The translations under genes were made by a program, and so were the position numbers. The notes beneath the pieces are model-generated. The model saw nothing but the letters and a program-made list of their open reading frames with translations. It had not been told where the DNA came from and made no database searches. This document shows positions 9,995-33,096 of a stretch of DNA of 64,000 nt, in pieces. Source of the stretch: Thermoplasmata archaeon (GTDB lineage: Archaea; Thermoplasmatota; Thermoplasmata; Thermoplasmatales; Thermoplasmataceae); NCBI GenBank assembly GCA_021835025.1, contig JAKBQY010000059.1:44036-108035 (forward strand). Reading direction: 5' to 3'. Position 1 is the stretch's first letter. Every line of letters begins with the position of its first letter.

Positions 9995-10264
9995 CACAGT
10001 GAGCGGGAAAACCCACCCCATTTATGGGTGGGATGAAAGCGAACCTTTTTATATCACAGAAAAATAGAGTTCCTGTCAACTGGTAGACATAATGAAAGAA
10101 GGTCGGATCACATATATCTCCATGTATGCCTGTGTCCATAAAGTCGAATGGCTGAGCATGGAGGGCAAAGTACCTTCGGGCCGAGGGGAATGCAAGCCTG
10201 TGGAGACTCCGCCAGTAGCCTTTGAAGCAGGAAGCCCATGAATTCATTCGTGGGAGGAGGTCAC
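9995..10264 (+). mobile_element. TnpB-less IS200/IS605-type derivative (solo element A) with terminal hairpins and TnpB C-terminal tail remnant
   Basis: Left end CACAGTGAGCGGGAAAACCCACCCCATTTATGGGTGGGATGAAAGCGAACC; right end GAAGCAGGAAGCCCATGAATTCATTCGTGGGAGGAGGTCAC; one frame reads MYACVHKVEWLSMEGKVPSGRGECKPVETPPVAFEAGSP*. Confidence 0.8.
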
Positions 10265-12589: not shown

Positions 12590-12905
12590 AGTTCGATGTT
12601 TATCTTGTTACATTGGGTATTTTCGGTGATGAAGATAACACAGTCAATAAAGTTATGCAATTCGCAAATCCATCCGAGAAATAAGAGAACACAGGAGGTT
12701 ACAGGCATACTCGATATGTGGTCATAGGCTAAAAATAGATCACAATGAAGGAATATTTAATTGTGAATGGATAATCTCTCGATTGATAGGGATCTTAATG
12801 CATATATAAATATTTTAGAAATTAATGTACCTGTGGAATGCAGGGAATATATGCCTATGGGCACCAAAACCTCTACTTTTATACGGGGACCTTCACGGTC
12901 TTAGC
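12590..12905 (+). pseudogene. tnpB relic (C-terminal zinc ribbon, frameshifted)
   Basis: YSICGHRLKIDHNEGIFNCEW, then in another frame IDRDLNAYINILEINVPVECREYMPMGTKTSTFIRGPSRS*. Confidence 0.6.
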
Positions 12906-13079
12906 GTGAGGTAGTTCACTATTGTACTGGCATTAAAATTAAGAACATTGTAAACAAAATAGGGGATAGATGTACAACTGATCACTAATATTATACATTT
13001 AACTGACCAGTTACATTCAATTATTTAGATAATTTAAATTAGATAAATTTTTAAATGTATATAATATTTCAGCAATATA

Positions 13080-25176: not shown

Positions 25177-26262
25177 ATGGAATTTAAATATCCCGAATAC
25201 AATGGTAACAGCATATATAATCTTGCATGCAAAATTTCAGAATCCCTTGGAGTTGAACAGGAAGGAAAATCAATTGATTTGAATTTTGAAAAGAAAAAAA
25301 CGATATTGATTTTAATGGATGGTTTTGGTATTAATTATGTTAAAAAATTGAATATAAAAAATGATTATAAAAAAATTACAACAGTATTTCCATCAACTAC
25401 TTCAACTGTGTTAACAACATTATTCACTGCAAAAACACCAGGAGAGCACGGAATTATTGGATATACAAATTATACAAATGAAATTGGAATAGTAAATACT
25501 ATGAGATACACATTCAGTGGCTATGATGTGAATGATGCTTTGTCATCACTGAAAAATTTTAATGATATATACAGTGTGAAATCATATTTAAAGGAGTCAA
25601 AGAAAAAAAGTATAAGCATACTTTTTGGAAGATTGAATAAATCTGTGTTTACAAACTCAACAATGGGTGGTGAGTATATGACATATAAATACATATGGGA
25701 TTCATTATACCAACTTGATAAATGTGTTTCAATGGATTATGACTTCATATATTTGTATATACCAACAGTTGATTCACTGGCACATGCGTATGGAACATAT
25801 GAAAATAGTGTCATGGAGGCTGCGGAATACATTTTCAATTACGTTATAAACAAGGTGGAAAAATATAAGGATAAGTATAATATCTTATTGACCGCGGATC
25901 ATGGCCATTTTCCAGTTTCCGAAAATATAATAATGAATGAAAGGAAGGATATTTTGAAAAGTCTGGATATAATGCCTTATGGCGATTCAAGGGCATTATT
26001 TTTAAGAACAAGGAATGATATAGATGATTTATTGCATTTCAATGATACAGATGTATTTAAAAAAGATGAAATATTAAAATCTGGAATGCTGGGAAATGTA
26101 AACGAAAAATATATTGGCAGAATAGGAGATTATTTGCTTGTTCCGCATGATGGCAAATGCTATATATATCAATCTAAAATTAATGATGATTATCATCTAT
26201 TGAAAAGCCATCATGGTGGTTTAACGGAAGATGAACAATATATACCATTATTTTACATGTGA
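25177..26262 (+). CDS. alkaline phosphatase-superfamily phosphodiesterase/nucleotide pyrophosphatase
   Basis: ILILMDGFGINYV, TTVFPSTTSTVLTTLFTAKTPGEHGIIGYT, LTADHGHFPV, SHHGGLTEDE. Confidence 0.85.
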   Translation: MEFKYPEYNGNSIYNLACKISESLGVEQEGKSIDLNFEKKKTILILMDGFGINYVKKLNIKNDYKKITTVFPSTTSTVLTTLFTAKTPGEHGIIGYTNYTNEIGIVNTMRYTFSGYDVNDALSSLKNFNDIYSVKSYLKESKKKSISILFGRLNKSVFTNSTMGGEYMTYKYIWDSLYQLDKCVSMDYDFIYLYIPTVDSLAHAYGTYENSVMEAAEYIFNYVINKVEKYKDKYNILLTADHGHFPVSENIIMNERKDILKSLDIMPYGDSRALFLRTRNDIDDLLHFNDTDVFKKDEILKSGMLGNVNEKYIGRIGDYLLVPHDGKCYIYQSKINDDYHLLKSHHGGLTEDEQYIPLFYM

Positions 26263-26528
26263 CCTCCTCCCCTATCTTTCGAAAGAGGCTTCCTGCTTCG
26301 GCGGTTACCAGCGGAACCTCCACAGGCCTGAATTCCCCTCGGTCCGTGGGCACTCTGTTCTTCATGCTAAGCCATTCGACTTTACGGGCACGAGCATACA
26401 TGGAGCTATATGTGATCCGACCTTTTTACATTATGTCTGCTGGTTGCCATTGTACTTTTGCAAAAAAGTAAATAAAGATTTCGCTATCATTCCCTCCCTT
26501 TCAGAAGGGGATTTCTCGCTCAATTTTG
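26259..26528 (-). mobile_element. TnpB-less IS200/IS605-type derivative (solo element B)
   Basis: Reverse strand: GAGCGAGAAATCCCCTTCTGAAAGGGAGGGAATGATAGCGAA ... AGACATAATGTAAAAAGGTCGGATCACATATAGCTCCATGTATGC ... GAAGCAGGAAGCCTCTTTCGAAAGATAGGGGAGGAGGTCAC; frame reads MYARARKVEWLSMKNRVPTDRGEFRPVEVPLVTAEAGSL. Confidence 0.8.
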
Positions 26529-26753
26529 TTAAAATTATGAATTTTTTATAAAATTTATTAATTAATGCTTATCGGGCATTTGTGTGGGTTCATTTAAATG
26601 ATATTTGGAAAAAACACCTTAAGTGACTGATTTGTATCTATGTATGAAATATAAAAATTCAAAGATGGAACAATCGCAATTGGCAATATCCTCTCCAATG
26701 TTCCAAGAATATTTGAAAGTGGGCTACCCACATGAAAGTTTGAAAACCCTTAA

Positions 26754-32580: not shown

Positions 32581-32804
32581 CACAGTGAGCGGGAAAACCC
32601 ACACCATTTATGGGTTGGATGAAAGCGAACCTTTTTTATATCACAGGAGAACATAATTCCTGTCCACTGGCAGGCATAATGACAGAAGGTCGGATCACTC
32701 CCAGATCTATGAGAATCTGGCTTGTGAAGACTGGGACACTACCCGCAAGGGCGACTCCGGCCAGTGAAGTAGGAAGTCCACGGTTTTAATCGTGGGAGAA
32801 AGCC
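32581..32804 (+). mobile_element. TnpB-less IS200/IS605-type derivative (solo element C, degenerate right end)
   Basis: CACAGTGAGCGGGAAAACCCACACCATTTATGGGTTGGATGAAAGCGAACC near-identical to element A; shared CATAATGACAGAAGGTCGGATCAC; right end GGAAGTCCACGGTTTTAATCGTGGGAGAAAGCC. Confidence 0.78.
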
Positions 32805-33096
32805 AAATTAAAGATATTTTTCCTTTTGGAAGTATACAATATTGTTGATAAACATATTGGGAACTAACTGTTTGAGAGGATATAATTCAACATTTTCTTT
32901 GTTTACTTACACAATTTATCAAAATAAATTTTATCAACGGTGTCCCGAGCATTATATTTAGAAGTATATATAAAACCCAAATTAGATTTAAAACAAAGTA
33001 TCCACTTAATCCAGGAATAATTATGAACATGTTATGTGATATTTCTAATAACGTTTTCTGAATAACAATTAAATATTACCTGCTTGTATAGTAATA

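Follow-up and report, generated by a model that had tools for sequence, protein, structure and literature searches.

The 64,000-nt stretch of DNA from an acid-loving archaeon analysed here (the window) holds a short insertion, element B, which by sequence criteria is a non-autonomous IS200/IS605-type element. It consists of a left-end (LE) hairpin with a promoter, a stand-alone omega-RNA-like gene and a right-end (RE) hairpin, and it has no protein gene. The reading that we favour, with a probability of roughly two in three, is that B is a PATE-like parasite of both IS605 enzymes: TnpA would mobilise it in trans, and TnpB could likewise be guided in trans by the RNA of B.

Anatomy, target site and copies of element B

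B and its sister element A are each exactly 270 nt long (Table 1). The preliminary description had placed B correctly, both in coordinates and in sequence, and its positions delimit the element exactly, on the minus strand. It had also reported that both terminal hairpins of B differ from those of A in sequence and are nevertheless paired, and this was borne out: the right hairpin has 7 pairs and a single T.T mismatch, which is retained in 48 of 73 copies, and the left stem is present as well. The scaffold segments listed there are indeed common to B and A, apart from minor differences such as AAAAAGG in B, which the earlier text gives as AAGAAGG. Inverted alignment of A with B gave 82% over 163 nt, and the two elements are 81% identical in the core and only 41% identical in the RE hairpin.

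Table 1. Positions in the window of elements A and B, their parts and a hybrid relative
Feature	Position	Strand	Basis
Element B, complete gene-less IS200/IS605-type element (solo omega-RNA element)	26259..26528	-	copy comparison and empty site in G002
Element A, sister solo element with other LE/RE hairpin type	9995..10264	+	R1 212 bits
LE hairpin CCCTT-CTGA-AAGGG, putative TnpA site	26496..26509	-	same LE in tnpA+tnpB element L045 and tnpB element L046
Target/TAM TTTAA left of LE, unduplicated	26529..26533	-	copy pattern and empty site L259
TATA-box-like TTTATTTA, 27 nt upstream of core start	26469..26476	-	highest TATA score over 72 copies, constant spacing
Conserved RNA core (model R1 1-162), about 162 nt	26288..26449	-	R1 spans 26449-26260, 204.7 bits, E 1.7e-47
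P0 5' strand ACCAGC	26439..26444	-	pairs with 26307-26312; compensatory changes at 4/6 pairs
P1 stem-loop CTCCATG..CATGAAG, one C.A mismatch in B	26360..26405	-	relatives CTCCATG/CATGGAG to CTTCATG/CATGAAG
P2 stem-loop CCCAC-GGACC-GAGGG, one A.A mismatch in B	26335..26350	-	CCCAC/GTGGG paired in tnpB-linked L308
P3 CCTG..CAGG (relatives CCCA..TGGG), pseudoknot with P0	26292..26327	-	alignment
P0 3' strand GCTGGT, within P5 loop (P5 GGTT..AACC, 26303-26318)	26307..26312	-	alignment
RE hairpin CCTCTTTC-GAAA-GATAGGGG, conserved T.T mismatch	26269..26288	-	copy comparison
RE end GGAGGAGGTCAC, cleavage point after it	26259..26270	-	end conserved, flank random beyond
Putative guide, host DNA adjoining RE (ATGTAAAATAATGGTATATA), 3' end of plus-strand phosphodiesterase-like gene	26239..26258	-	inferred from omega-RNA logic
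Hybrid relative, 5' part A-like, 3' part like tnpB-linked omega-RNA	32581..32805	+	R1 50.4 bits, 1.6e-10

No ORF on B's own strand spans the core. A protein-coding B was considered and rejected, as the 106-aa ORF that runs across it lies on the opposite strand and has no Pfam match. In one frame, the core of A reads as a relic of a tnpB C terminus (GKVPSGRGECKPVETPPVAFEAGSP). As in IS200/IS605 elements, asymmetric subterminal hairpins stand near both ends of B, which has no terminal inverted repeats; as in PATEs, B is too short for a transposase gene, contains none and carries IS605-like palindromes.

The orthologous site in a congener (G002, locus L259) is empty, and reads ..TTTTATG-TTTAAAATT.. 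compared with ..TTTTACAT joined to TTAAAATT.. here when B is removed. The comparison places the insertion 3' of TTTAA, with no target duplication. In a simple pattern search, at least 49 of the 73 copies had TTTAA or TTTAT before the LE. At the other end, conservation among copies stops at GGTCAC and gives way to random flank. B was inserted at the stop codon (26255-26262, plus strand) of a phosphodiesterase-like gene (25177-26262) and brings a new in-frame TGA, so the length of the encoded protein is unchanged (YM-stop, against YV-stop in the congener).

The left end of B (CAAAATTGAGCGAGAAATCCCCTTCTGAAA..) is identical over 35 nt to the LE of an IS605-type element on contig 34 that carries both tnpA and tnpB (L045), and it equals the LE of a tnpB-only element on contig 59 (L046). 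B thus has IS200/IS605 ends without a gene, while its RE hairpin is of another type than that of the contig 34 element. In a relative (G033), gene-less (solo) copies and a complete IS605 have near-identical LEs, and such identity between solo and autonomous elements was found in two genera. The genome of B has a single intact tnpA (Y1 transposase; Pfam E 1.3e-35), located in the contig 34 element, and 12 TnpB zinc-ribbon matches. An intact tnpB, also on contig 34, encodes 415 aa, in which RuvC-like D/E/D motifs were recognised by eye. In L045 (1-1500), the genome's only intact tnpA-bearing IS605, the LE hairpin is split by another insertion sequence with a transposase-like ORF of about 315 aa; this element may therefore supply TnpA without moving itself.

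The same genome (1.68 Mb, 65 contigs) has 52 loci with sequence like A or B, of which 27 are at least about 200 nt long. Within the family, 37 of the 77 genomes contain the core. Among 400 sampled genomes of the class, 46 had matches to our covariance model of the element (R1, described below): 39 belong to the same family, and the other 7 are divided between two further families of the order. The lowest-scoring of these matches are tnpB 3' ends. The exact core motif also occurs in named records (Thermoplasmata MAGs, E-plasma and clone ASS_A1); the exact core pattern was not found in viral contigs. With only a handful of exceptions, the aligned copies have their LE about 90 nt upstream of the core, too close for a tnpB gene to fit between.

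The core as a relative of TnpB omega-RNA

R1 was built from 65 copies and trained on solo copies only. In the same genome its matches include the 3' ends of each of the nine tnpB loci tested (E 1e-4 to 8e-9), and it also found tnpB 3' ends in relatives. Since a model trained on solos finds tnpB 3' ends, the core is related to the TnpB omega-RNA and has a 5' half that is new. The block common to both can be written GTA-(P2)-GAATTCA.GCCTGTGGAG .. GAAGCAGGAAGCC-(RE hairpin)-GGAGGA.GTCAC. The closest tnpB-linked form is L308/L293 (G027), where TnpB ends VPTDCGEFMPVE.. compared with GTGCCCACGGACCGAGGGGAATTCAGGCCTGTGGAGG in B, and where GAGTACCCACGGACTGTGGGGAATTCATGCCCGTGGAGG corresponds to GAGTGCCCACGGACCGAGGGGAATTCAGGCCTGTGGAGG. 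For the first half of the core (the P0 5' strand, GGTCGGATCAC and P1) no counterpart was found in tnpB-linked omega-RNAs, and TnpB may for this reason not accept the solo RNA.

B shares with the TnpB omega-RNA (reRNA; 3' end of IS200/IS605 tnpB) the RE hairpin, the GGAGGA.GTCAC end, the P2-P3 block, a TAM-like TTTAA and the guide position, the scaffold stopping at the RE with flanking DNA next. It differs in lying outside tnpB and in its 5' half, where P1 and the long-range P0 replace a local stem and an extra hairpin. Omega-RNAs of Halobacterium and other archaeal IS200/IS605 elements, with their circular isoforms, are expressed but, unlike the solos, tnpB-associated as described there (PMC12558985). 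The window contains two further related sequences. The hybrid is A-like up to GGTCGGATCAC and then continues as a tnpB-type 3' omega-RNA including the extra hairpin, with P0 kept (CACTGGC/GCCAGTG). At 12720-12918 (plus strand) lies a decayed tnpB 3' end with an RE-like tail (GTGAGGTAGTTCAC; E 0.006 with the solo RNA model).

When 72 copies were aligned on the core start, the TATA score reached its maximum at -26, the distance expected between an archaeal TATA box and the start site. The sequence from box to core carries a mean of 0.38 bits, compared with 1.41 in the core; in distant copies the spacer is only 11-26% identical and constant in length, whereas the core is 74-81% identical. A TATA box at a constant 26-27 nt upstream implies, as far as sequence can tell, that the core has its own transcript, and a spacer of fixed length and randomised sequence is the expected trace of selection on a start site at the core.

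At the gathering threshold, Rfam gave no match in the whole window. Membership in HgcC (RF00062), an orphan archaeal ncRNA, was rejected at 15-21 bits (B 15.4; best 20.9, L146) against a gathering score of 50. Below threshold, HgcC matched repeatedly at one and the same 3' end, in solos and in tnpB genes alike (L146, L150, L151, L293, L295, L308 and B), and the 3' end of HgcC is the same as that of the solos, GGAA.CC-(hairpin)-GGAGGAGGUCA, with the 5' part mismatched. A pattern search recognised a TnpB-like reading frame at only 2 of 20 weak-HgcC loci in the phylum; among the matches listed, at least six weak HgcC matches lie, by their coordinates, directly downstream of tnpB zinc-ribbon matches. 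In Thermococcus kodakarensis, transcripts of HgcC1-3 arise within transposase genes, in the sense orientation, whereas HgcC4-5 are located away from such genes (PMC4247193), and in 2017 the function of HgcC was still called unresolved (PMC5732400). In our literature search, no paper linked HgcC to TnpB. HgcC could be a family of archaeal omega-RNAs; with a score so far below threshold, we treat this as a lead and not as membership.

Compensatory pairing among the copies

The alignment A1 comprises 65 distinct copies and a structure of 33 pairs. In it, 94.1% of cells are paired, two-sided changes occur at 15 of the 33 pairs, and the covariation score is 0.391, compared with 0.226±0.007 after shuffling and at most 0.149 in all slid controls. 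The long-range stem P0 reads GCTGGC/GCCAGC in most relatives, ACCAGC/GCTGGT in B and ACTGGT/GCCAGT in A. P3 (CCTG/CAGG or CCCA/TGGG) crosses P0 and forms a pseudoknot with it in the solos, where tnpB-linked forms seem, by eye, to have a local stem instead. P0 is the key helix, and the preliminary description had missed it.

Compensatory events were compared with a null in which parsimony substitutions were redistributed on the tree (300 replicates), the helices having been chosen partly from the same alignment. The RE hairpin (P4) had 15 compensatory branch events compared with 1.7 in the null (0/300). Double compensations also exceeded the null in P0 (5 vs 0.8; 1/300), P1 (3 vs 0.6; 8/300) and P5 (2 vs 0.1; 1/300). 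P3 covaries with weaker events (2 vs 0.4; 17/300), and P2 was indistinguishable from the null (138/300). In an unbiased list of all possible stems, P0 and the RE hairpin ranked first; P3 came next, together with some short stems attributable to chance, and P1 was the longest.

The covariation check proposed at the outset thus had a divided outcome. Tests restricted to the named helices were significant, whereas an R-scape-like scan of all against all in 73 copies, with a null of the same type, found no pair at E<0.05 (best E 0.37), since most of the signal comes from a few deep clades. Single-sequence folding was rejected as evidence for structure, with z near 0: the RNA core of B alone folded no better than shuffles (z 0.16), and neither did its hairpins as DNA (RE z 0.17, LE z -0.76). 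Any claim of selected structure must therefore rest on comparison. The C.A mismatch in P1 and the A.A mismatch in P2 of B indicate that some decay is under way.

The claim that RNA or single-stranded DNA structure has been under selection is supported across the copies; the stem change from A to B that had been offered for it is not quite the right basis. Because the LE of B is that of the resident IS605, this difference reflects in part two end types and not stepwise compensation, and changes within the B subfamily are one-sided. The terminal stems are the hairpins that TnpA would recognise as single-stranded DNA. Better evidence for selection at the RNA level comes from the internal helices P0, P1 and P5, for which the copy comparison offers support.

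Proposed mobilisation in trans and competing readings

In the mechanism that we propose, the resident IS605 TnpA would excise and insert B in trans, excision producing a joint of TTTAA with ATGTAAAA. A transcript would start at the core, pass the RE and end in host DNA; the final ~16-20 nt would form a guide matching B's own empty site. TnpB would load the B RNA in trans and cut empty sites adjoining TTTAA, and repair of a cut site from an occupied copy would restore the element. Both expression of the B RNA and its binding by TnpB are what we infer from these sequence features.

A simpler account, which we hold to be unlikely although it is the strongest competitor, is a plain PATE or MITE: a deletion derivative of IS605 kept only because TnpA recognises its ends, in which the core is a leftover of an old tnpB 3' end, carried along passively. 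It explains the ends and the mobility, and it has precedents. The palindrome-associated transposable elements (PATEs) of Haloquadratum walsbyi are, like B, gene-less and multicopy, with IS605-type near-terminal palindromes and no target duplication, and in one of them, HqIRS71, a portion of the tnpB 3' region survives (PMC3119063). The B family differs from them in its structured, covarying core of about 162 nt, whose 5' half is not tnpB sequence, in its promoter at a fixed distance and in its family-wide spread. Passive cargo fits poorly with a core conserved across genera beside a randomised spacer of constant length, with compensatory changes in P0, P1 and P5 beyond the tree-based null, and with a TATA box at a fixed distance from the core. 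The spread of short forms without P1 and P2, described below, speaks for it.

It is considerably less probable that the solo RNA is expressed as a decoy or regulator, titrating TnpB or repressing tnpA/tnpB instead of guiding cleavage. For the circular omega-RNAs of archaea, a decoy role has been suggested (PMC12558985), and a 5' half unlike that of tnpB-linked omega-RNAs would suit it; however, the RE end and TTTAA context are intact, so that a matched guide is always present, and we saw no sign of lost guide function. A domesticated host small RNA unrelated to TnpB would account for a conserved structured RNA with its own promoter, but dispersed and variable sites, transposon ends, an empty site and homology of the core to tnpB 3' ends make this very improbable.

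Beyond the parasitic reading of B, we put forward only tentatively, with the odds somewhat against it, a free-living lineage of guide-RNA transposons across the archaeal order. Its members would be omega-RNA genes that have become independent of tnpB and carry a promoter of their own and an altered 5' domain; they would exploit TnpA for movement and TnpB for RNA-guided retention. The transcribed Thermococcales HgcC RNAs, some of them located at a distance from transposase genes, would be the same kind of thing. Elements made of omega-RNA only may have been described earlier. Should TnpB accept solo RNAs, a transposon could survive without any gene, carrying only a guide RNA, which would bring it a step closer to CRISPR-type systems that act in trans with many guides; one nuclease would have dozens of natural guides per genome; and a testable identity would be suggested for HgcC.

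Short solo forms that lack the stretch from the P1 loop to P2, joined at an internal repeat GCCTGTG, were observed in the same genome (L056, L059, L085, L089 and L090) and in another (G038; L176 and L179). As they occur in two genera, the deletion either arose more than once or is old. These forms multiply too, and P1 and P2 are thus not needed for transposition.
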